A stretch of 64,000 bases of DNA, taken from positions 3,778,868-3,842,867 of the forward strand of contig NZ_KB235914.1 in NCBI RefSeq assembly GCF_000332175.1, in the 5' to 3' direction. Position numbers and translations under genes: made by a program. Under the pieces are notes generated by a model. It did not search any database. It was not told the DNA's origin and saw only the letters and a program-made list of their open reading frames with translations. Positions 51,502 to 63,593 of the stretch are shown here, piece after piece (the first letter of the stretch is position 1; every line of letters begins with the position of its first letter). Source of the DNA: Pseudanabaena sp. PCC 6802. Lineage in GTDB: Bacteria > Cyanobacteriota > Cyanobacteriia > Pseudanabaenales > Pseudanabaenaceae.

Positions 51502-52044
51502 CTAAATGCACCGCTGTAGGACTGGTATGAAGTGTGCCAGGTCAGGAGTATCTAACCCGACTATTTTAGCCCGATCGTCCAACCATCGCAGTCGAACGGC
51601 TTCTCGAGCATAAGGTCGATCGATGAATTGCGAAGCCTCTTCTGAAGAAAGTGCACCGCCTTGCAACTCCAGACTTACTTGAGAAGCGCGCGAAAGCGTG
51701 GACCAATAGTCAGGATCTGCGGTGCAAAGATAGCGTTTCGCATCTACGTGAAGCCGAATGGGTTCTGTTATTGCGGCACCAAATAATTGCTGGAGCAAAG
51801 GCAAGGCTCGGTGTTCGTGGCGATCGTCTATGCCTCGTTTGGCAGCATCGTCTCCGAATTCATGGATGAGGTGCCCTAAATCGTGAAGCAAGCAAGCGGC
51901 GATCGCTTCGGGGTTTTGTCCCTCTGCTTCGGCGAGCGTAGCGCATTGCAAGGCGTGTTCGAGTTGGCTGACGGCTTCTAATCCATACATTTGCGAACCT
52001 CGCTGCGCAAATAGATCGAGTATCGTTTGCAAGGTGGGTTTCAT
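51502..52044 (-). CDS. phnZ: HD-domain phosphonate oxygenase (PhnZ-like)
   Basis: A 180-aa HD/HDIG-domain protein of the family found in phosphonate operons. Visible ligand motifs: QLEHALQCATLAE, CLLHDLGHLIHEFGDD, DDRHEHRAL, RLHVDAKRYLC, and SLELQGG. PhnZ is a mixed-valence di-iron oxygenase that cleaves 2-amino-1-hydroxyethylphosphonate made by PhnY; no PhnY is present here. ATG at 52044 (MKPTLQTI) is chosen; an upstream frame runs to 52104. Last gene of the phosphonate operon, 19 bp after the second phnM. The exact substrate is uncertain. Confidence 0.85.
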   Translation of the reverse strand: MKPTLQTILDLFAQRGSQMYGLEAVSQLEHALQCATLAEAEGQNPEAIAACLLHDLGHLIHEFGDDAAKRGIDDRHEHRALPLLQQLFGAAITEPIRLHVDAKRYLCTADPDYWSTLSRASQVSLELQGGALSSEEASQFIDRPYAREAVRLRWLDDRAKIVGLDTPDLAHFIPVLQRCI

Positions 52045-52063: not shown

Positions 52064-53272
52064 TCAACATAGAGAGGCGTACTGAACGATTGGGCGACCA
52101 GCAACGTACACTGCCGCGATCGCGCTCGGCATAGCGTTACCTGGCTGCACTAACAAGAAATCGGCATCGTATGTAGGTGCGATTTTTCCTTTGCGATCGC
52201 CCAAGCCACTAGCTACAGCAGGACGACCGGAAACCAATTCCCAAGCTTGCTCGAAGGGCATCAAACCCAGTTCCTGCAACTTGAATGGTGCGTGGAACAG
52301 GGATGGGTAATGGTAATCCGAACAAAGGATATCCAGGACACCAGCTCGCAAGGCATCGGCGGCATTCATCCAACCCAGATGAGAGCCGCCGCGCACGAGA
52401 TTAGGCGCTCCCATCAACACCGCAGCACCGTAGGCGCGGGAATTAGCAGCCAATTCGACTGTGGACGGAAACTCTGCGATCGCCACACCTCGGCTTTGAC
52501 TCAAAGCTACTTTTTCTTCGCTATCATCATCGTGGGACGCGACGGGAATTCTCAAGCTATGAGCGAGTTCCACTAGTTCCTTAACCTGCTGGTGCCCAGG
52601 CTCTCTCTGCAACTCGATGCGAGCGAAAAGCTCGTCTATTTCCTCATCCGTTAGTGACAAGCGTCTCCTCAAACCTTTAAGATGGCGCAGCAATTTCTGG
52701 GGATTGCCGGGAGGTGGCAGGTGATCGTTGAGAGATAGCATGTGAACTCTCCCCGATTTCAACCAATCACACAGTTCGTCATAGCAATCGGTATTTGCCA
52801 GTTCGTGACGGATATGAATGTAGCTATTACAACGTAAGGTGGATTTGCCCGTATCCAAAATAAAATCAAGTAAATTGCGAGCCATTTCTCGACTGCGCAA
52901 ACCCGGTTCGTAGGAGTCGGTAATGGAATAGAAAAAGGTAGTGATTCCTGCGGCGATAAGCTGGCGGTCATTTTCCGCGATCGCTAGAGAAATCGGGAAG
53001 TTTACGCCAGGACGCGGGGCGATCGCCCGTTCAAAGGCATCGCCGTGGATATCGACGATACCTGGGAGCATTTGCAATCCCTTGGTATTAATTTGGTGGC
53101 TGCCATTTGGACTAGAACAGGAATCGATACTAGCAAATTTGCCATCTTCCACCAGAACCGTGGCATCCTTGAGCCATCCGTTTGGGGTCAAAACATCTAC
53201 TCCTTGAATGGATAACGAGCGATCGTCGAGCTGTTTCGAGCGAGATTGAGCTTCCAGAATTGTTCTTTCCAT
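52064..53272 (-). CDS. phnM: PhnM-family amidohydrolase, second copy
   Basis: A 402-aa amidohydrolase homologous to PhnM: MLPGIVDIHGDAFERAIAPRPG, HDDDSEEK, GAPNLVRGGSHLGWMNAA, SDYHYPSL. Residues equivalent to the metal ligands are present, but the first motif reads HGDAFER, not HTDNLE as in PhnM of E. coli and the neighbouring copy. PhnM releases pyrophosphate from the ribose-triphosphate phosphonate intermediate. Two copies in one operon suggest a different substrate for this one. Which of the two performs the canonical step is not certain; the other looks more canonical. Confidence 0.85.
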   Translation of the reverse strand: MERTILEAQSRSKQLDDRSLSIQGVDVLTPNGWLKDATVLVEDGKFASIDSCSSPNGSHQINTKGLQMLPGIVDIHGDAFERAIAPRPGVNFPISLAIAENDRQLIAAGITTFFYSITDSYEPGLRSREMARNLLDFILDTGKSTLRCNSYIHIRHELANTDCYDELCDWLKSGRVHMLSLNDHLPPPGNPQKLLRHLKGLRRRLSLTDEEIDELFARIELQREPGHQQVKELVELAHSLRIPVASHDDDSEEKVALSQSRGVAIAEFPSTVELAANSRAYGAAVLMGAPNLVRGGSHLGWMNAADALRAGVLDILCSDYHYPSLFHAPFKLQELGLMPFEQAWELVSGRPAVASGLGDRKGKIAPTYDADFLLVQPGNAMPSAIAAVYVAGRPIVQYASLC

Positions 53273-53365
53273 TAACTTATCTACCTTGCAAATTTAAGGT
53301 GTAGGGTGGACAATGCTCACCTTACAGGTTACAGATTGGAGCGTAGAGAATATCTAGAATTCCTG

Positions 53366-54502
53366 TCAGGCGACGCGATATCCCTGACAGATGGTTACCT
53401 TAATTTTGGGTACTACACCGTCATCGCGCACGATCGCCAGATCGGCTCGTTTACCGATTTCCAGGCTACCGCGATCGCCATCCAGTCGAATCGCTTTGGC
53501 GGGATTGCTAGTAATGAGATGGATGGTTTCGTAAAGCGGCTTGCCGGTTTTATGCGCGATCGTGAAGGCAGACTGCAGCAAGCTCAGAGGTACGTAATCA
53601 GAGGAAACGATATCGGCTAGATCGCTCTCCACTAAGTCCATAGCGGATACGTTCCCAGAATGAGAACCACCTAAAACTAGATTGGGAGCGCCAACCATTA
53701 CTTGCAGACCGTTGGTATGAGCTTCCTTTGCTGCGATGAAGGTGGTGGGAAACTCGGCGATCGCCGCCCCTTCCTCCAAGGCGATGCGAACGTGTTCCAC
53801 CGTTTCGTCGTCGTGACTGGCGAGAGGGATTCCTCTCGCTTGGGTCAGGGCTACTAGAGCGCGACGACTGCTCTCAGCATGGCGCTGCTGGTCGTCGAGG
53901 CGATCTTGAATGAATCGCTCCATCTCCCCAGGTTTGATGCCGTGCTTGCCGGAGTAATATGCTTTAAACTTGTCTAGATTGACAAATTGGCGCTGTCCTG
54001 GCGTGTGATCCATGAGGGAAATTAAAACTAGTAAGGGACTGCTGGCATAGCGTTCGGTAATGTCATAAACGCGGTCGAATCCCAATTCACATCGCAGGTG
54101 TAGGCGGTGATCCACACTGAAACCTCCAGCCTGCTGTCGCTTCTGGATTGCATCGATTGCCTCATCGTATTGGTTAAATCGCAGGGATGTGGGCGTAACA
54201 TCGCCGATTGCGATCGCATCGCAGACGGTCGTGATACCTGCGGCAGCCAACTCGCGATCGTGGTAGATCGCGGCAGCCTCCAGGGGCCAGCGAATGCCGG
54301 GACGGGGCGAAATACAGGTTTCCAGGTTGTCGGTATGCAGTTCGACTAAACCGGGCATGAGATAGTCACCGCCACCATTCTGTCCGATCGCCACAACGTC
54401 TGGCTGGATGTCGGCGATCGTACCGTCGCGGACGACTAGGGTGCCCAAGATCTCGCGATCGGGTAGCAGGAGCCGATAATTAGTATAAATCTGTTCGTTC
54501 AT
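53366..54502 (-). CDS. phnM: Alpha-D-ribose 1-methylphosphonate 5-triphosphate diphosphatase
   Basis: The canonical PhnM: LMPGLVELHTDNLETCISPRPG near residue 50, AAAGITTVCDAIAIGDV, LASHDDETVEHV, and GGSHSGNVSAMDL. It removes pyrophosphate from the triphosphate intermediate of C-P lyase. The 378-aa length is normal. It overlaps the phnL stop by 4 bp, so they are translationally coupled. A 93-bp gap, longer than the others in the operon, separates it from the second phnM. Confidence 0.94.
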   Translation of the reverse strand: MNEQIYTNYRLLLPDREILGTLVVRDGTIADIQPDVVAIGQNGGGDYLMPGLVELHTDNLETCISPRPGIRWPLEAAAIYHDRELAAAGITTVCDAIAIGDVTPTSLRFNQYDEAIDAIQKRQQAGGFSVDHRLHLRCELGFDRVYDITERYASSPLLVLISLMDHTPGQRQFVNLDKFKAYYSGKHGIKPGEMERFIQDRLDDQQRHAESSRRALVALTQARGIPLASHDDETVEHVRIALEEGAAIAEFPTTFIAAKEAHTNGLQVMVGAPNLVLGGSHSGNVSAMDLVESDLADIVSSDYVPLSLLQSAFTIAHKTGKPLYETIHLITSNPAKAIRLDGDRGSLEIGKRADLAIVRDDGVVPKIKVTICQGYRVA

Positions 54503-55260
54503 GATTCCGTATATTCGCGATCGATATTATGGCGGGTGAAGGATAAATCCCGGTTACAAAGTCGCGATCGCACTTCTCGATCGTGAAAGATGCCAATCAG
54601 CGTGCATCCTCTGGCTTTGCGTTCCTCCAGTAACTCCACGACAACTTCGCAGTTGATGGCATCCAGCGCCGATGTCGGTTCGTCCAACAGTAAAATTGGA
54701 TAATCCACCACCAGAGCGCGGGCGATATTGACCCGTTGCTTTTCACCTCCCGAAAAAGTAGTGGGAGAAAGTTGCCACAGGCGTTCGGGCAAATTGAGGC
54801 GACAAAACAGTTCTCCGACCGTTTTCTCTGCCACCTCTGCTTCTATGCCTAGTTCCAATAAAGGTTCGGCAGCTACTTGCAGGGCAGGCACGCGGGGAAT
54901 GACGCGCAAAAATTGACTGACATAGCCAATCGTCTTCCTCCGCAATTCCAATAGTTCGTGAGGTTCCAGTTTTGTCAAATCTACCCACTCGCCGTCGCGT
55001 TCGATCCAAATTTCACCGCGATCGCAGTGATAATTTCCATACAGGCAGCGCATAAAAGTAGACTTGCCACTGCCTGATGGCCCGGTCAAAGCGATACATT
55101 CTCCAGCGTTGGCCGTCAGAGAAACCCCAGATAGGACAAGAAGTTCGGTTCCTCCTTGCTGATGCAGCGTAAAGCTTTTATGCAAGTTGTCAACCTGCAA
55201 TCTCTTTTGGAAGGTAGGTTGGATAGAAGTATGAATGTCTCGAACATCTGCGATTTTCAT
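54499..55260 (-). CDS. phnL: C-P lyase subunit PhnL, ABC-type ATPase
   Basis: A 253-aa ABC ATPase: Walker A GPSGSGKST, signature FSGGEKQRVNIARA, Walker B ILLLDEPTSALD. Known PhnL is needed in vivo for the ribose-triphosphate phosphonate step of the C-P lyase pathway with PhnGHI. It lies 21 bp after phnK and overlaps phnM. Confidence 0.94.
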   Translation of the reverse strand: MKIADVRDIHTSIQPTFQKRLQVDNLHKSFTLHQQGGTELLVLSGVSLTANAGECIALTGPSGSGKSTFMRCLYGNYHCDRGEIWIERDGEWVDLTKLEPHELLELRRKTIGYVSQFLRVIPRVPALQVAAEPLLELGIEAEVAEKTVGELFCRLNLPERLWQLSPTTFSGGEKQRVNIARALVVDYPILLLDEPTSALDAINCEVVVELLEERKARGCTLIGIFHDREVRSRLCNRDLSFTRHNIDREYTES

Positions 55261-55281: not shown

Positions 55282-56052
55282 TTAAGGAGTGAGGGTAGCG
55301 CTTGCTAAAAGTTGGGTGTAGGGATGCTGGGGATCGTCCAGCACCCGATCGGTCAGCCCTTCTTCCACGACCTGGCTGTTTTTCATTACCAGCAGGCGAT
55401 GGGCTAAAAGCCTTGCCACTCCAAGATCGTGGGTAACAAGAATGATGCTGAGGTGAAAGGTGCGGACGAGCGATCGCAGTAAATCCAGCAAGCGCGCCTG
55501 TACCGATACATCTAATCCTCCGGTTGGTTCGTCCATCAAAACCAGGCGAGGGCGGGTGACCAGGACGCGAGCCAGTTGCAAGCGCTGCTTCATACCTCCC
55601 GAAAAAGTTGTAGGGACGTCGTCCATGCGAGATGGATCGATTTCCACCTGTTGCAACCAGTAAGCTGCCTCCTGGCGCATGTTGCCATAGTGTCGCGCTC
55701 CCACATCGAGCAGCCGCTCCGCTATATTAGCTCCAGCACTCGCTTTCATCCGCAATCCATCGTGGGGGTTCTGCTGCACAAATCCCCATTCCGTTCTCAT
55801 CAACCGACGGCGCTGTGGTTCTGGTAATTGGATAATATCTAGTGGCTCTCCATTATTGTTGGTGTAGGAGATCGCGCCCATATCGATCGCGAGTTTGCCC
55901 GCGATCGCGTTCAGCAAGGTCGTCTTGCCCGAACCGGACTCGCCGACGATTCCCAACACTTGACCGGGATAAAGGTCGAAAGAGACGCGATCGCACGCCT
56001 GAATTGCGCCGTAGGATTTACTAAGATGTCGTACTTTGAGTAGGGGTTGCAT
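55282..56052 (-). CDS. phnK: C-P lyase subunit PhnK, ABC-type ATPase
   Basis: A 256-aa ABC ATPase from ATG at 56052 (MQPLLKVRHLSKSYG). The longer open frame to 56271 overlaps phnJ and is not used. Walker A GESGSGKTT, signature FSGGMKQRLQLARV, Walker B LVLMDEPTGGLD, and an H-loop in LVTHDLGVAR. PhnK binds the PhnGHIJ core complex. It overlaps the phnJ 3' end by 32 bp. Confidence 0.94.
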   Translation of the reverse strand: MQPLLKVRHLSKSYGAIQACDRVSFDLYPGQVLGIVGESGSGKTTLLNAIAGKLAIDMGAISYTNNNGEPLDIIQLPEPQRRRLMRTEWGFVQQNPHDGLRMKASAGANIAERLLDVGARHYGNMRQEAAYWLQQVEIDPSRMDDVPTTFSGGMKQRLQLARVLVTRPRLVLMDEPTGGLDVSVQARLLDLLRSLVRTFHLSIILVTHDLGVARLLAHRLLVMKNSQVVEEGLTDRVLDDPQHPYTQLLASATLTP

Positions 56053-56947
56053 GTGACTGCCTTTGATTGCAATAGTCTGTATCCGAGCAAATCCAGAGCC
56101 GTCCGCCCCGGTCGTCGATAACCACTTCATCGAGGTAACTTTCCGTTGAACCGCAAAATTCGCAAGCTCGATCCCATCGTTCCACGCTAAAGGGATAGTC
56201 TTCAAAATCCAGGCTTTTGACAGGCGTATAGGGAGGGATGGCATAGATGCGTTTCTCTCGCCCAGCCCCAAATAGTTGCAGTGCCGGACTCATGTGCAGT
56301 TTAGGATTGTCAAAGCGCGGAATCGGGCTGGGACTCATTAAGTAGCGATCGCCGACGATCGCTGGATAGTCGTAGGCGGTGGCGATATGGCCGTATTGCG
56401 TGATGTCTTCGTAAAGCTTGACGTACATCGGCCCGTATTCTTCCAGAGCGTGCATTTTGCGGGTTTCCGCTGCTGACGGTTCCAGCCAGCGCAGTGGTTC
56501 GGGGATCGGCACCTGAAACACGATAATCTGTCCCTCTCGCAAAGGTGTTTCGGGAATGCGATGGCGGGTTTGGATTAAGGTCGCAGCTTCGGTCTGCTGC
56601 GTGGTTTTTACGTGGCAGACTTTCTTGAAAAAGTTGCGAATGCTTGCGGCATTAGTCGTATCGTCCGCGCCTTGATCGATAACCTTCAAGATATCGTCCT
56701 TGCCAATTACGGAAGCCGTCACCTGAATGCCACCCGTGCCCCAGCCATAGGACATGGGCATTTCCCTAGAGGAAAAGGGAATTTGATGGCCGGGGATAGC
56801 AACAGCTTTTAAGATGGCGCGACGAATGGAACGCTTGGTTTGCTCGTCTAAGTAAGCGAAATTGAATCCCGTTGAGTGATTCCAATCTTCGGCAAGATAG
56901 CCATTACCGTTCAGATCTTTGTTATTGCGGTTCGAGTTTGTCATCAT
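56021..56947 (-). CDS. phnJ: C-P lyase catalytic subunit PhnJ
   Basis: PhnJ is the radical SAM enzyme that breaks the carbon-phosphorus bond. The C-terminal cysteine pattern CEFC, then a Cys in LWICSDTDYC, matches the four conserved cysteines (three cluster ligands and a catalytic Cys). The protein begins MMTNSNRN at ATG 56947 and shares its start with the phnI stop (ATGA overlap). The upstream open frame to 57037 lies within phnI. The N-terminal ~20 residues are an Asn-rich extension. Confidence 0.95.
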   Translation of the reverse strand: MMTNSNRNNKDLNGNGYLAEDWNHSTGFNFAYLDEQTKRSIRRAILKAVAIPGHQIPFSSREMPMSYGWGTGGIQVTASVIGKDDILKVIDQGADDTTNAASIRNFFKKVCHVKTTQQTEAATLIQTRHRIPETPLREGQIIVFQVPIPEPLRWLEPSAAETRKMHALEEYGPMYVKLYEDITQYGHIATAYDYPAIVGDRYLMSPSPIPRFDNPKLHMSPALQLFGAGREKRIYAIPPYTPVKSLDFEDYPFSVERWDRACEFCGSTESYLDEVVIDDRGGRLWICSDTDYCNQRQSHATPTQSTTS

Positions 56948-58182
56948 CAATCTTCTCTCTCCCCTCCTGGCAAAATCGGTTCTGCGACTGGAGTACCCGA
57001 TCCTGTAGTTGAACGATCGAGGCGATCGCCTGAGCATCCCAATATTTCTAGCGAATCGGACGATACTGACATTTCTAATTCTTGGTGACCGTTGGCATTA
57101 TAACCGTTCGCACTGCCTTTCTCCTGACGCAGTTTGCGAATGAGGTTGAGTTCGGCTTGGAAGTCAATATAGTGCGGCAGTTTCAGGTGCTGGACGAAAC
57201 CCTGAGCTTCGACATTGTCGGAATGGGACATCACGAACTCAATATTTTGGGCAGGTCCTCGGATCGTTTCGTCAAATTCCTCCGCTCGCAGGGCGCGATC
57301 GACCAGTGCCACAGACATGGCTTTGCGTTCGTTATGTCCGAGAACCAGACCGTAACCCCGCGTAAACTGCGGCGGGTTGTCTTTATTACCTTTAAACTGG
57401 TTCACCATCTGCACTTCCGTAGCGGTAATTTCACCCACTACAACCTCAAATCCCAATTCCTCCGGACAAATGACAACATCCACTTCACCCATGCGAATTT
57501 CACCAGCGAAAGGGTGATTTTTACCATAGCCCCTTTGAGTTGAGTAGGCTAGGGACAGTAGAAATCCCTCGTCGGCGCGGGCGAGATTCTGCAACCGTGC
57601 ATCTCTGCCAACTGGAAAACTGAGGGGTTGGCGGGTCAGATCGAAGATCGGTGCTGCCTCTTCCAGGCTGGATTCGGCCTGAATCGTTCCTTCACGCTCC
57701 AGAATATCTGTGGCATGTGACATGGGCAATAATTCTTCCTCTGCTTCTGGAGCAGACGATGGCGCTTCCTCCTCAGCCATTAATTTGAAGTCCAGCAAGC
57801 GGTGGATGTAGTCGAAGGTCGGCCCCAAGCACTGTCCGCCTGGCACGTCCTTAAAAATCGCGGAAATACGACGGCGGACGTGCATTTCTGCCGTATTCAG
57901 CGGTTGGCTGTAGTAGAAGCGGGGCAACGTAGTGCGGTAAGCGCGCAACAGGAAAATCGCCTCCACCAGATCGCCCCAGGATTGTTGGATTGCTAAAGCT
58001 GCTAGTTCGCGATCGTAGAGACTGCCTTCCGCCATGACGCGATCGACTGCTAGCTTCAGTTGCTGTTCGATCTGCTCTAGAGAAAGTTTTGGAACTGTGG
58101 GATCGCCGCGCCGCAGTTGCTGGAGGAGCATTTCCGCATTCTCGATCGCTTTTTCGCCGCCTTTAACCGCTACATAGGCCAT
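56947..58182 (-). CDS. phnI: C-P lyase subunit PhnI
   Basis: PhnI is the nucleosidase that joins phosphonate to the ribose of ATP, with PhnG, PhnH and PhnL. From ATG 58182 the protein has 411 aa, starting MAYVAVKGGEKAIENAEMLL, the family N-terminus; the longer frame to 58269 overlaps the acetyltransferase gene. GGQCLGPTFDYIHRLLDFKL and VVICPEELGFEVVVGEITATE are recognisable. The C-terminus is longer than in E. coli and Asn/Ser-rich. Confidence 0.94.
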   Translation of the reverse strand: MAYVAVKGGEKAIENAEMLLQQLRRGDPTVPKLSLEQIEQQLKLAVDRVMAEGSLYDRELAALAIQQSWGDLVEAIFLLRAYRTTLPRFYYSQPLNTAEMHVRRRISAIFKDVPGGQCLGPTFDYIHRLLDFKLMAEEEAPSSAPEAEEELLPMSHATDILEREGTIQAESSLEEAAPIFDLTRQPLSFPVGRDARLQNLARADEGFLLSLAYSTQRGYGKNHPFAGEIRMGEVDVVICPEELGFEVVVGEITATEVQMVNQFKGNKDNPPQFTRGYGLVLGHNERKAMSVALVDRALRAEEFDETIRGPAQNIEFVMSHSDNVEAQGFVQHLKLPHYIDFQAELNLIRKLRQEKGSANGYNANGHQELEMSVSSDSLEILGCSGDRLDRSTTGSGTPVAEPILPGGERED

Positions 58183-58186
58183 GCCA

Positions 58187-58669
58187 TCAGACCTCCATTT
58201 TTGTTTTACTGAGAACGCACTTAAAACTCCAACCGTGTTGCTTGAATCCCAGCGATCGGTAGAATTCATGGGCGCGATCGCGTTTCAGATTAGATGAGAG
58301 CGCTACTTTATAACATCCCGCTTCGGCACTGAGTTGGATTGCAGCCCGCATCATCGCCGCGCCGATGCCCTGACCGCGCCGATCCGAACGCACCGTCACG
58401 GCATCGAGGATGGCATACTTGTGATAGCCGCGATGCATCATGGTGGGAACGTAGAGGAGGCTAAACGTACCGACTGGCCCGCTTTCCTGAAATGCTAGAT
58501 AGATAAAATAGTTGGGAACCATCGCGATCGCGTCGAATAGTTCTGCGATCGTTTCAGCGGGTAATGGATTCTCTGCATCCATGTCAGCATAAAGTTCCTG
58601 AAGGAGAGGCAGATCGGCGGAGGTGGCACAACGAATGTCTAAGGGGATTTCTAAGGCGTTTTTTCTCAT
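58187..58669 (-). CDS. GNAT acetyltransferase of the phosphonate operon (PhnO-like)
   Basis: A 160-aa acetyltransferase with the acetyl-CoA motif VRSDRRGQGIGAAMMRAAI and C-terminal FYRSLGFKQHGW. It lies between phnH and phnI, overlaps phnH by 4 bp and is 4 bp from phnI. PhnO of E. coli acetylates aminoalkylphosphonates; a similar task here is inferred from position. It is not close to PhnO in the visible motifs, so I leave the symbol blank. Confidence 0.88.
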   Translation of the reverse strand: MRKNALEIPLDIRCATSADLPLLQELYADMDAENPLPAETIAELFDAIAMVPNYFIYLAFQESGPVGTFSLLYVPTMMHRGYHKYAILDAVTVRSDRRGQGIGAAMMRAAIQLSAEAGCYKVALSSNLKRDRAHEFYRSLGFKQHGWSFKCVLSKTKMEV

Positions 58670-59277
58670 GGCGTTCCCTCCAATCTAACTGCTCTAGTTG
58701 TGCGTGGCAAGCCGATCGCAGCATCTCCTGTAAAGAAGAAGACATCAATCCCTAATGGATAGGCTTGATGATTTGCTTCCCATTGCTCCCAGAACGCAGC
58801 ATTAACTTGCGGTCGGACTGCGCGCCGATCCAAAATTCCATACCCTGTAAGCGTTACAGACCGCCCACCTCCCCAACTGGGAATTTGGATTAGTAATGTT
58901 GTGGAGGCTTCCGGTTGCTCGTGGGTGCCCCAATTGAAGCGATCGAGTTCGGGCATGGCATCGATCTGTGAAATGACAGCAAAATCAGCGCGATTGGGTT
59001 CTGTCGCAAACTGACATCCCGTATGAAACTGCAACCAATTTTTGACTGCTGCCTCAGATGACGGTTGCAGCCAGATCGCTACATCTAAGTCGAACAGCGT
59101 TAAGCAAGCAGATGCGCAGGCAGGGGTTAACCCCACAGGTGGGTGGATTTCAGATGCGATCGCGCTGGGTAAACCAGGATGGGCGCAGGCATCGAGCAGC
59201 GCTCGAAATGTTTGCTGGGCATCATTGACGGGGTTGGCAAAACCAGGAAGCGATGGAGTAATAAAGGACGCAGTCAT
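58666..59277 (-). CDS. phnH: C-P lyase subunit PhnH
   Basis: PhnH is a small subunit of the C-P lyase core complex. The 203-aa protein has PGFANPVNDAQQTFRALLDA near the N-terminus and SVTLTGYGILDRRAVRP plus NHQAYPLGIDVFFFT at the C-terminus, typical of the family. It follows phnG by one base. Confidence 0.93.
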   Translation of the reverse strand: MTASFITPSLPGFANPVNDAQQTFRALLDACAHPGLPSAIASEIHPPVGLTPACASACLTLFDLDVAIWLQPSSEAAVKNWLQFHTGCQFATEPNRADFAVISQIDAMPELDRFNWGTHEQPEASTTLLIQIPSWGGGRSVTLTGYGILDRRAVRPQVNAAFWEQWEANHQAYPLGIDVFFFTGDAAIGLPRTTRAVRLEGTP

Positions 59278-59278
59278 C

Positions 59279-59758
59279 TTAGCTCAACACCTCGCCTCTA
59301 AGCATCGTGAAAAAGTTAACTTTAGTCGCTGCCGTTTGGCGATCCCGGATGCCTTTCTGGCGATCGCGCTGTTCTCGGAGTGGGCGAACAACTTCAGCCT
59401 GCACTCGATCGTGCCAGTCGGGATGCTGCAAGAGGGCATCGCACAGAGCAGCCAGTTCGGCATGGCGGCGCGATCGCCCTGCCACATAACTGAACCCAGT
59501 AATTGCCTCGCGCTCGGGAGAAGGTGCTAACTGGACGGCACAGCGAGCGATTGGCATTTCGCCCAGGTTGAATGCCTGACCGTTCCCGCCTGCTCGACCT
59601 CGCACCATTACCAGACCGATTTCCGGCGATCGCAAAAAGCTGTAGTTGGGTATACCCTCCAATTGGCCGACGTGTTGCTCCAGTGTACCGAGAGCAGCTT
59701 TTGCCAGGGTTGCCATCCATGCTTGTCGTTCTAGTTGCAGGGTCATTGCGGGTTCCAT
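59279..59758 (-). CDS. phnG: C-P lyase subunit PhnG
   Basis: The first gene of the operon; PhnG is part of the core complex. 160 aa from ATG 59758; ATG 59746 and a TTG at 59764 are other in-frame starts. The family pattern LERQAWMATLAKAAL, then VGQLEGIPNYSFLRSPEIGLVMVRGRAGG and LGEMPIARCAVQL, with HPDWHDRVQAEVVRPL, is clear. It starts about 50 bp from the putative PhnF operator. Confidence 0.93.
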   Translation of the reverse strand: MEPAMTLQLERQAWMATLAKAALGTLEQHVGQLEGIPNYSFLRSPEIGLVMVRGRAGGNGQAFNLGEMPIARCAVQLAPSPEREAITGFSYVAGRSRRHAELAALCDALLQHPDWHDRVQAEVVRPLREQRDRQKGIRDRQTAATKVNFFTMLRGEVLS

Positions 59759-59773
59759 ATGCAACCAAGTTAT

Positions 59774-59864: not shown

Positions 59865-60599
59865 ATGAACTCTGAAATTACACCGCTGTACGTCCAAATT
59901 GCCGCCGAACTGCGGCATAACATTCAGCAAAATGTCTATCGAGTTGGCGAGCAATTACCTACGGAAGCTCAGTTGGCAGAACGGTTTGCCGTCAATCGAC
60001 ATACTCTGAGACAGGCGATCTCCCTGCTGAAAACAGAGGGATTATTGCGGGTAGATCGCGGACGGGGAACTTTTGTAGCTGGCCCCACCATTCGCTATCC
60101 GATCGGGCATCGGGTTCGTTATAATGAAGCCCTTAAAGCCCAGGGGCGGCAAGCTAGCTTCCTACTCCTGCGCGCGCTAGAGACTCCAGCGGATACTGCC
60201 GTAGCAAAGGGGCTAGAAATCGCACCAGGCGAATCTGTAGCGCTCGTTGAAAGGCTGGGTTTTGCCGATGGCGAACCGATTAGCATCACAACGGGTTATT
60301 TTCCCCTCAAGCATTTTCCAAACCTGCTCGATCCATTTAGCCTCGAACAATTGCAAGCTCTTCAATCGCTTTCCAAGTGGTTGCAACAGAATTATGGCTG
60401 CGATCATATTCGTCGCTCCACTACAGTTTCCGCCCGCTCGGTTTTGCCGCAAGATGCGCGCTTGCTGCAATTACCGCTCAACCAGCCCGTGCTTTTAGCC
60501 GAATCAGTCAATGTTGATCGCGCCGGGAAAGTTATCGAATATGGCGTGACGCGACTGAGAGGCGATCGCGTTGAGTTAGCGTTTGAGAACAGAATTTAA
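59865..60599 (+). CDS. phnF: GntR/HutC-family regulator PhnF
   Basis: A 244-aa repressor with an N-terminal winged helix (VGEQLPTEAQLAERFAVNRHTLRQAISLLKTEGLLRVDRGRGTFV region) and a C-terminal UTRA ligand-binding domain (ALVERLGFADGEPISITTGYFP). PhnF proteins repress phosphonate genes and sense a metabolite; the ligand here is unknown. Divergent from phnG. Confidence 0.92.
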   Translation: MNSEITPLYVQIAAELRHNIQQNVYRVGEQLPTEAQLAERFAVNRHTLRQAISLLKTEGLLRVDRGRGTFVAGPTIRYPIGHRVRYNEALKAQGRQASFLLLRALETPADTAVAKGLEIAPGESVALVERLGFADGEPISITTGYFPLKHFPNLLDPFSLEQLQALQSLSKWLQQNYGCDHIRRSTTVSARSVLPQDARLLQLPLNQPVLLAESVNVDRAGKVIEYGVTRLRGDRVELAFENRI

Positions 60600-60695: not shown

Positions 60696-61487
60696 GTGAC
60701 CGCAACGATTGAAGTCAGTAACTTGTCCAAAAGTTTTAAAGGCAAACCTGCACTACAGAATATCTCGTGCTTCATCGCACCGGGAGAAATGGTTGCGCTA
60801 GTTGGAGCTTCCGGCTCTGGCAAATCCACTCTCTTGCGACACCTAAATGGCTTAGCAACTGCGGACGCTGGGACAGTTTTAGTTTTTGGCATCCCTTTGC
60901 AAACGGATGGACGCTATCATTCCAACGTTCGTTCCCTGCGCAGCCAGATTGGGTATATATTTCAGCAGTTCAATCTGGTAAACAGGTTGACGGTTTTGGA
61001 AAACGTCCTGATCGGCACTCTGTCCCGGACGAATTGGTGGCGATCGCCGCTACGCCTGTTTGATAAGGAACAGAAGCTGCACGCCCTCTCAGCACTAGAG
61101 CGAGTGGGAATTCTGGAACAGGCATATAAACGCTCCTCCCATTTATCAGGAGGGCAACAACAACGGGTAGCGATCGCTCGCTGCCTGGTTCAGGGAGCCA
61201 TGATTATTCTGGCGGACGAGCCAATTGCTTCTCTAGACCCAGAATCTGCTCGTAAAGTGATGGAATTGCTAGTCGAACTGAATCAAGAACGCGGGATTAC
61301 CATTGTCAGCGCCCTGCATCAGATTCAATACGTCCGCCATTACTTCAAACGAGCGATCGCGCTCAGAGATGGCGAGATTTCATTTGACGGATTGACCTCC
61401 ATGTTAAACGATGCCAAGTTGCAAACCCTTTATGGGTTGGCAGCTTCAGAACTCGTGATGTCAGGTCATGGAGAACTCCTAGTCTGA
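60696..61487 (+). CDS. phnC: Phosphonate ABC transporter ATP-binding protein
   Basis: A 263-aa ABC ATPase starting with GTG at 60696. Walker A GASGSGKST, Q-loop in FQQFNLVNRL, signature LSGGQQQRVAIARC, Walker B MIILADEPIASLD. The order phnC-phnD-phnE and the linkage to C-P lyase genes identify it. It is separated from phnF by 96 bp and may have its own promoter. Confidence 0.94.
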   Translation: MTATIEVSNLSKSFKGKPALQNISCFIAPGEMVALVGASGSGKSTLLRHLNGLATADAGTVLVFGIPLQTDGRYHSNVRSLRSQIGYIFQQFNLVNRLTVLENVLIGTLSRTNWWRSPLRLFDKEQKLHALSALERVGILEQAYKRSSHLSGGQQQRVAIARCLVQGAMIILADEPIASLDPESARKVMELLVELNQERGITIVSALHQIQYVRHYFKRAIALRDGEISFDGLTSMLNDAKLQTLYGLAASELVMSGHGELLV

Positions 61488-61717: not shown

Positions 61718-62725
61718 ATGAAAAGACGTTCTTTTGTACAGCCAGCTTCTTTATTTGCGCTCTCCCTAGCTGGTACTAAGCTCATCTCGGACTTTTCAAC
61801 TGGCACTGAAGCAGCAAGCGCGCTGGATATTAAGCAGATCAATTTTGGCATTCTCTCTACAGAATCGCAGGCTAATCTCAGACCTCTGTGGGAGCCATTT
61901 ATTGCGCAAATGTCAAAATCAATCGGGGTTCCCATCAAGCCTTTCTACGTCACTCAATATGCCGGTGTTATTGAAGCAATGCGTTTTGGTAAAGTACAGG
62001 TTGCTTGGTATGGGGGTAAATCCTATATTGAGGCGGCGAGAATTGCCAACGCCGAGGTTTTTGCCCAGGTTGTCAATACCGATGGCACAAAGGGCTACTA
62101 TTCCCACCTGATTATGAATAAAGCGAATCCCTTAACCACGCAAGCAAAAGCGATGGGTGGGGATAAATTCGTCATCAAAAATGCCTCAAAACTGACATTT
62201 GCCTTTAACGATCCTAACTCCACTTCGGGTTTTTTGGTGCCAAGTTATTACATTTTTGCTAAGAATGATGTCGACCCTAAGAAAGCATTTAAGCGACTGG
62301 TTTTCGCTGGAAACCACGAGGCAACGGCTTTAGCAGTAGCAAACAACCAGGTTGATGTTTCTACAAACAGTAATGAAATTCTAGAGCGCCTGAAAAAAAC
62401 TAACTCAAGCGCTCGCCAAAAACTTGAAGTTGTTTGGACTTCTCCCGTTATTCCCAGCGATCCGATCGCCTATCGCAAGGATTTACCAGAGGATCTAAAG
62501 AAGAAATTTCGCAACTTCTTCTTCAACTATAAAGACTCCAAGATTCTCACCCCTATGGGTTGGGGAGGCTTTGCTGCTGCTCAGGACAAGACCTGGAACG
62601 CAATTCGCGAACTGGACATTGCCAAGCAGGTTCTGGAGATCAAAAACAAAGATAGTTTGAACGAAGCAGACAAGAAAAAGCTTAACGAGTTGAATCGCCA
62701 GCTTCAGGCTCTGCAAAGAGGTTAA
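61718..62725 (+). CDS. phnD: Phosphonate ABC transporter substrate-binding protein
   Basis: A 335-aa periplasmic binding protein. The N-terminus MKRRSFVQPASLFALSLAG has an RR pair and a hydrophobic core, so export through Tat is possible (RRSFVQ resembles the twin-arginine motif). The mature part contains KQINFGILSTESQANLR, YAGVIEAMRFGKVQVAWYGG and DPNSTSGFLVPSYYIF, as in PhnD. It is downstream of phnC with a MITE in between. Confidence 0.94.
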   Translation: MKRRSFVQPASLFALSLAGTKLISDFSTGTEAASALDIKQINFGILSTESQANLRPLWEPFIAQMSKSIGVPIKPFYVTQYAGVIEAMRFGKVQVAWYGGKSYIEAARIANAEVFAQVVNTDGTKGYYSHLIMNKANPLTTQAKAMGGDKFVIKNASKLTFAFNDPNSTSGFLVPSYYIFAKNDVDPKKAFKRLVFAGNHEATALAVANNQVDVSTNSNEILERLKKTNSSARQKLEVVWTSPVIPSDPIAYRKDLPEDLKKKFRNFFFNYKDSKILTPMGWGGFAAAQDKTWNAIRELDIAKQVLEIKNKDSLNEADKKKLNELNRQLQALQRG

Positions 62726-62744: not shown

Positions 62745-63593
62745 ATGAAAGCTCCAAAACAGGACAATCTTATCAACAGCCCAAATAATGGGTCTGGGTT
62801 TTCTCCAGAAGCGATCGCCATGCTGGAACGGGAAGCAAAACTTGTCACAATAAAGCGGGTGATATTCTCGATTGCCGCAATTGCGATTTTGATAGCTTCA
62901 TTTATGCAGAGCGAGATCGATTTACCCCAATTGCTTTCACGTGGGGATAACATGTCTGAATACATCCGGGGATATTTCCCACCCGATTTTTCGGATTGGT
63001 CGTATTACCTGGAAGAAACGCTCGATACTATATCGATGGGAATTTGGGGAACCTTGCTCGCAGCGATCGCAGCGGTACCTCTTTCAGTTCTTGCATCCAA
63101 TAATATCTGTCCGTTTTGGATCGTACAGCCCGTGCGGCGCATACTGGATATCCTCCGAGCCATTAACGAATTAGTTTTTGCACTCATCTTTGTAGTTGCT
63201 GTGGGGTTGGGGCCATTTGCTGGAGTACTGGCACTGTTTGTCTACACTACTGGTATCCTAGGGAAACTCTTCTCAGAGGCGGTGGAAGCGATCGACATGG
63301 GGCCAGTGGAAGGCATCCGCGCTACAGGGGCTTCAAAGGTGCAAGAAGTTATTTACGGAGTGATCCCTCAAGTTATGCCCCTGTGGACTTCATTTACTCT
63401 ATATCGCTTTGAATCGAACGTTCGTTCTGCTTCTGTCCTGGGAATTGTTGGTGCTGGTGGAATTGGCGTTTCGCTATATCAAAGCTTTGGCTCGTTTCAA
63501 TATCAGAAAGTCTGCGCTATTTTGATTATTTTGGTAGCTGCTACAGCTATCATTGACGCTTTATCAGCTAGAATTCGCGCCTGGTTAGTTTGA
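62745..63593 (+). CDS. phnE: Phosphonate ABC transporter permease
   Basis: A 282-aa permease with the binding-protein-dependent transport signature: ETLDTISMGIWGTLLAAIAAVPLSVLA, then EAVEAIDMGPVEGIRATGASKVQEVIYGVIP (the EAA loop). Five or six transmembrane segments are visible. Ends the phnCDE operon, 91 bp before the tRNA cluster. Confidence 0.94.
   Translation: MKAPKQDNLINSPNNGSGFSPEAIAMLEREAKLVTIKRVIFSIAAIAILIASFMQSEIDLPQLLSRGDNMSEYIRGYFPPDFSDWSYYLEETLDTISMGIWGTLLAAIAAVPLSVLASNNICPFWIVQPVRRILDILRAINELVFALIFVVAVGLGPFAGVLALFVYTTGILGKLFSEAVEAIDMGPVEGIRATGASKVQEVIYGVIPQVMPLWTSFTLYRFESNVRSASVLGIVGAGGIGVSLYQSFGSFQYQKVCAILIILVAATAIIDALSARIRAWLV

Follow-up and report, generated by a model that had tools for sequence, protein, structure and literature searches.

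Genes of the C-P lyase pathway serve as markers for phosphonate use and for aerobic methane formation. In this pathway PhnI, together with PhnG, PhnH and PhnL, makes ribose-1-phosphonate 5-triphosphate (RPnTP), and PhnJ breaks the C-P bond after the PhnM step. In the PhnM step diphosphate is removed from RPnTP, as stated in the available excerpts of two papers (PMC10574752; PMC3840354). Second phnM genes are already in print, and an NCBI family for this kind of protein exists (NF011987). Such genes, among them 'phnM1' of B3_TF_MPn_2, were reported in or near marine C-P lyase clusters (Martinez 2013, PMC3840354; Sosa 2017, PMC5649143; Lockwood 2022, PMC9381506); the excerpts of all three papers leave the role of the second gene open, and a test of a second PhnM activity was not recognised in the open-licence literature. 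In Nodularia spumigena CCY9414 phosphate depletion induces most of the C-P lyase operon and also an operon with phnC1D1E1 and a truncated phnH, which is coupled to a separate phnM (excerpts of PMC9846622).

The window, i.e., the whole stretch of 64,000 nucleotides that was analysed (G000:C5:3778868-3842867), contains a phn cluster whose genes are closest to cyanobacterial ones, as judged from BLASTP labels and from the tree described below. On the minus strand the gene order is phnG-phnH-GNAT-phnI-phnJ-phnK-phnL-M1-M2-HD, and beyond phnG the genes phnF, phnC, phnD and phnE follow on the plus strand. Near the end of the cluster two intact genes for PhnM-type amidohydrolases, M1 and then M2, were found (52064-54502, minus strand). 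The features are as follows:

51502-52044, minus strand: phosphonate HD-domain oxygenase, PhnZ/TmpB-like (TIGR03276, 233.7 bits, cut-off 214.6)
52064-53272, minus strand: M2, second PhnM (clade II, NF011987), 402 aa, HGDAFER, intact ORF
53273-53365, minus strand: gap between M1 and M2, 93 bp
53366-54502, minus strand: M1, canonical phnM, 378 aa, HTDNLE, intact ORF (TIGR02318, 468 bits, cut-off 390.55)
54499-55260, minus strand: phnL (TIGR02324, 339.7 bits)
55282-56052, minus strand: phnK (TIGR02323, 376.5 bits, matching from residue 75 of a long ORF)
56021-57037, minus strand: phnJ, C-P lyase (PF06007, 491 bits, genome-wide search, G000:C5:3834921-3835736)
56947-58269, minus strand: phnI (PF05861, 532 bits, G000:C5:3835988-3837046)
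58187-58669, minus strand: GNAT acetyltransferase, weakly PhnO-like (NF007530, 33.7 bits, below the cut-off of 142)
58666-59277, minus strand: phnH (TIGR03292, 196 bits)
59279-59764, minus strand: phnG (TIGR03293, 169.5 bits)
59865-60599, plus strand: phnF-type GntR regulator, divergent (ORF; label from translation and annotated Nostoc layout)
60696-61487, plus strand: phnC (ORF; label from translation and annotated Nostoc phnCDE layout)
61718-62725, plus strand: phnD (ORF; label as for phnC)
62745-63593, plus strand: phnE (ORF; label as for phnC)

The sequence-only reading had described M1 as a canonical phnM and the next gene as a clear paralogue with a divergent middle, and this description was borne out. 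The ORF of M1 is intact, its motif is present, and it passed the cut-off of TIGR02318, the PhnM equivalog model. For M2 the ORF, the motif, the gap and an identity of 30% with M1 over 349 residues (BLASTP, E 2e-45) agree; by this comparison the homology of the two proteins is far beyond chance. The divergent middle was recognised in the alignment, because the G-Q-R-Q that follows the DH motif in M1 is missing from M2. M2 reached 539 bits with NF011987 (PRK15446.2-3, PhnM subfamily), more than twofold over the cut-off of 253, and 341 bits with TIGR02318, which is below the cut-off of 390.55. The name of NF011987 asserts PhnM activity, and M2 was assigned to this family by its score. Promoter- or terminator-like matches were looked for and none was found in the gap between M1 and M2, and a search with a Pho-box-like pattern yielded zero matches. 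Unlike the marine second phnM genes, which according to the excerpts are Rhodobacterales genes and are likened to M2 by description rather than by a placement in the tree, M2 is cyanobacterial and adjoins an HD oxygenase gene.

Within the cluster, phnK likely starts with the ATG at 56052, though the ORF opens to a TTG at 56271, and the HD gene probably starts with the ATG at 52044 and not with the TTG at 52104, which opens the ORF and overlaps M2. The HD protein exceeded the cut-off of TIGR03276 (Phn-HD oxygenase) and matched TmpB (6npa, E 1.8e-40) as well as PhnZ (4mlm, E 5e-22); it stayed below the cut-offs of 300 bits of the TmpB equivalog NF049941 (173.6 bits) and of the hydroxymethylphosphonate dioxygenase model (155.6 bits). 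The presumed functional residues Y24, E27 and H34 of PhnZ align with its residues Y40, E43 and H50. PhnZ/TmpB-type enzymes cleave 1-hydroxyphosphonates, and the matches of the HD neighbour are best explained by a PhnZ/TmpB-like oxygenase that would cleave C-P bonds in an accessory role. A gene for a PhnY/TmpA-type partner was not seen within the cluster, and neither phnN nor phnP was seen there. The HD protein as a substitute for the missing PhnP is not favoured, because the matches to TIGR03276, TmpB and PhnZ indicate an oxygenase, and because the Nodularia C-P lyase locus, which has no labelled phnP, has no HD gene. Like the window, many cyanobacterial relatives have a GNAT gene between phnH and phnI.

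The relationship of the two PhnM types was analysed with a tree of 145 rows (144 different, as the E. coli PhnM was entered twice), which was calculated with a quick LG+G4 search and in which the program flagged long branches. ORFs of at most 340 aa, matches of at most 300 residues, identical proteins, the giant ORF L118 and the small loci L001-L032 and L132-L172 were left out. M1 fell into a clade of 45 rows (SH-aLRT 100) that also holds the PhnM of E. coli and further PhnMs of C-P lyase systems. M2 fell into a second clade of 90 rows (SH-aLRT 100), called clade II. Besides genes of gammaproteobacteria and a large group that is mostly alphaproteobacterial, this clade holds the cyanobacterial M2s, which form a group of 35 rows together with M2 of the window (SH-aLRT 99). 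The split is therefore older than the pairing in the window operon. A recent duplication of M1 into M2, which the sequence-only reading had named as an observation that would speak against it, was ruled out by the separate clades and the low identity. With the E. coli PhnM (b4095), an RPnTP hydrolase, M2 has in common the amidohydrolase superfamily, the predicted metal ligands and the PhnGHIJKL neighbours; it differs in the score below the TIGR02318 cut-off, in the separate clade and in lacking the GQRQ block.

A loss of metal ligands from M2 had been named as a second such observation, and it was ruled out as well. All seven predicted ligands align with those of M1 (M2/M1: H76/H56, D78/D58, H153/H135, E157/E139, H184/H166, H247/H230, D319/D302). 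In total 35 alignment columns share one residue between the two clades with a conservation of at least 95% in each. All predicted ligands are among these columns, which in M2 numbering include H76, D78, H153, R155, E157, H184, H247, D248, N291, H298 and D319. In addition, T118, E122, R126, R204, R294, Y322, P323 and W344 are fixed in clade II and missing from M1, and clade II lacks the fixed G-Q-R-Q of M1. As far as alignment and tree can tell, M2 is thus a member of a distinct, ancient PhnM lineage with conserved residues of its own. The AlphaFold2 model of M2 (pLDDT 91.9) shows an amidohydrolase fold with the predicted ligands HxD, E, H, H and D, the roles of which were assigned by analogy; according to the secondary-structure listing these ligands lie at strand ends. 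The model resembled dihydroorotase and N-acetylglucosamine-6-phosphate deacetylase (NagA) with Z of about 29 over 311-317 residues, and a structure search with the M1 model (pLDDT 93.5) found the same kinds of fold. A role of M2 as N-acyl phosphonate deacetylase was considered in view of the GNAT gene, but the NagA-like fold is common to M1 and is thus uninformative. The search of solved structures with the M2 sequence gave no match at 0.001, and the M1 sequence and an M2 profile gave weak matches to other amidohydrolases and none to a PhnM.

M2 is kept under purifying selection beside M1. In the 17 genomes that hold both genes (136 pairs) the mean pairwise identity was 74.4% for M1 and 69.7% for M2, and dN/dS, obtained from 38 of the 136 pairs, was 0.040-0.170 for M1 and 0.054-0.167 for M2. 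These values near 0.1, and the fact that reading frames are open and predicted ligands intact throughout clade II, argue against M2 being a decaying or neutral remnant of a second C-P lyase cluster. Such decay would be in accord with the separate phnCDE-M2 stretch of Nodularia, in which 26 residues matching the start of HD come after M2 and phnH is truncated (excerpts of PMC3610870), and with Marinobacter goseongensis, where the clade-II copy is shortened and PhnJ is absent. However, the coupled Nodularia operon 2314 is up under phosphate depletion (excerpts of PMC9846622), and it is extremely unlikely that M2 is such a remnant. The gene layout of one sampled cyanobacterium (G284) matches that of Nodularia spumigena CCY9414.

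The sequence-only reading had also proposed that M2 might be linked to the HD oxygenase gene that follows. Two genome samples of larger groups, 292 cyanobacteria and 369 genomes, were available. PhnJ was present in 9 of the 292 cyanobacteria. With NF011987 scoring of the best 6 candidates per genome, M2 (at least 524.9 bits) was found in 7 of the 292, and all seven were among the nine PhnJ genomes, including G284 and G143, where M2 and phnJ are separated by about 2.8 Mb and about 65 kb, respectively. A Phn-HD match of at least 179 bits was found in 11 cyanobacteria, four of which have M2. Inside the nine PhnJ genomes this overlap of four is at chance level (hypergeometric P = 0.72, shared ancestry ignored). 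M2 thus tracks PhnJ, and the proposed link to HD was not upheld.

In a locus survey, no clade-II gene from outside the cyanobacteria had HD as a neighbour. The survey covered 80 loci from named genomes, a neighbour being a gene at most 1.6 kb from the clade-II gene; a locus was called cyanobacterial-type when its best match was a cyanobacterial M2 (29 of these 33 are truly cyanobacterial), and genes beyond the window were labelled by BLASTP against a small reference set, so that only genes in this set could receive a label. HD adjoins the clade-II gene in 19/33 cyanobacterial-type, 0/11 gamma-type and 0/36 alpha-type loci. A phnC, phnD or phnE gene is near in 3/33, 10/11 and 22/36 loci, respectively, and in 10 of the 36 alpha-type loci no phn gene was labelled near clade II within the stretch examined. 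A route of M2 and HD apart from C-P lyase, in which M2 would for example ready the substrate of HD, could draw on the adjacency in the window and the 19 loci as well as on the HD-start match behind the Nodularia M2. Yet HD is missing from three of the seven M2 genomes, M2 is missing from seven of the eleven HD genomes, and in one genome (G170) HD adjoins M1 and M2 is absent; such a route is therefore very unlikely.

To find out how clade II relates to the pathway, 19 genomes or records with a clade-II gene were searched genome-wide for PhnM with TIGR02318, all candidates being scored, and for PhnJ. PhnJ was present in 17 of them; the two without were a 1.5-Mb MAG and a record with an N-terminally shortened copy. 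A second intact PhnM was found in 12 of the 19, and in four the clade-II gene was the only intact PhnM found beside PhnJ. In Anabaena lutea (G292) the operon reads phnGHI-M2-JKL, and in Marinobacter confluentis (G294) phnDCE-M2-GHIJKL-MFS-N-P. In the cyanobacterium G143 GHI, JKL and CDE-M2 lie at three places of one contig (L175, L049, L035). In the cyanobacterium G278, known from one draft assembly, M2 is intact, and M1 is frame-shifted and lacks about residues 182-301, including the predicted ligand H230. In a fifth genome (G568) an alpha-type clade-II gene belongs to a full operon that also has N, G, H, I, J, K and L; M1 was missing from the best 4 candidates listed, which makes its absence less sure. 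The five cases represent five separate changes on the tree. The layout DCE-M2-GHIJKL-MFS-N-P was also found in Marinobacter nauticus VT8, the one of the 19 for which the search covered the plasmid only. As separate observations, the PhnI of G143 is 66% identical to that of Marinobacter, and in a gammaproteobacterium (G597) an alpha-type clade-II PhnM, an M1-like one and an Mp-like one occur at three places (L177, L178, L179).

Some PhnJ genomes thus seem to manage with clade II alone, and M2 most likely does the same job as M1. Based on homology, the retained predicted ligands, the old divergence, purifying selection, the co-occurrence with PhnJ and the four genomes with M2 alone, M2 probably represents a second PhnM lineage that hydrolyses RPnTP and is isofunctional, or nearly so, with the first. 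M1 and M2 would both remove diphosphate from RPnTP ahead of PhnJ, in the case of M2 in a metal-dependent reaction as for M1, and the HD gene behind M2 would encode a separate accessory enzyme of the PhnZ/TmpB type. The present analysis contributes the division into clades, the finding that M2 goes with PhnJ and not with HD, and the genomes in which the second type is the only intact PhnM found. If two old PhnM lineages are interchangeable, the number of phnM genes would not give the number of pathways; according to the excerpts of Lockwood 2022 (PMC9381506), a lower co-occurrence of phnM was put down to two-copy genomes. The genomes with only clade II offer a direct genetic handle on the role of the second PhnM, which has been in papers since 2013 as far as their excerpts show.

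Plain redundancy is opposed by the distribution, because 51 of the classified clade-II rows are dual (with M1 or the Mp type) and only 5 are sole; strict redundancy would leave this pairing unexplained. It is tempting to speculate that M2 differs in its preference for phosphonate side chains or in the growth condition under which it is used, and that both genes are kept for this reason. The earlier proposal that M2 acts on another intermediate is affected in two ways: a separate intermediate is weakened by the four PhnJ genomes, whereas a different substrate preference is possible for a distinct old lineage with its own residues. Tentatively, M2 could be specialised within this pathway and act alongside M1 instead of taking its place, although this is rather unlikely; its substrates would be ribosyl 5-triphosphates of particular phosphonates imported by the linked PhnDCE, or by-products such as ribose 5-triphosphate. 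The retention beside M1 under purifying selection and the phnDCE neighbours of the gamma-type and alpha-type loci are in favour of specialisation. Furthermore, many clade-II-specific fixed residues are at strand ends close to the predicted active site. In strand-end windows, set by hand from the predicted secondary structure of M2, with position lists from the alignment, 22 of 43 class-specific positions were found versus 9.1 expected (hypergeometric, shared ancestry ignored). However, shared positions were enriched too (18/35 versus 7.4 expected, same test), which shows a clustering of conserved sites only, and therefore the test cannot separate same from different substrates. In addition, clade II must cover the main reaction in the four PhnJ genomes, if their pathways work, and E122, R126 and R294 are also frequent in the Mp type, a member of which is the sole PhnM of the annotated Methylibium RPME01 operon. 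It is likewise doubtful, and on the whole unlikely, that all of clade II is a functionally distinct, transporter-linked hydrolase tuned to the ribosyl triphosphates of particular phosphonates, with dual genomes splitting the phosphonates between the two enzymes; if true, C-P lyase genomes with both enzymes would run two parallel routes of phosphonate activation.

Several further gene neighbourhoods were observed. In several Nostoc-type C-P lyase operons a gene for a FosA-type glutathione transferase lies directly before M2 (L044 9540-9962, NF000496 189 bits; L051, L053, L057, L059, L060, L063, L078), and in Nodularia a VOC-family gene lies between phnI and phnJ (excerpts of PMC9846622). A gene for a TIGR03223 phosphonate-operon protein is divergent from an alpha-type clade-II PhnM at three loci (L094 9152-9895, L106 9096-9911, L109 9152-9898), where no C-P lyase core gene was labelled within the stretch examined. 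In G193 (L173 1290-8808), which belongs to the same family as the genome of the window and has no PhnJ, a Phn-HD gene lies behind genes for PhnS2, an ABC ATPase, PhnU2, a PhnX-like hydrolase and a TIGR03364 FAD oxidoreductase.
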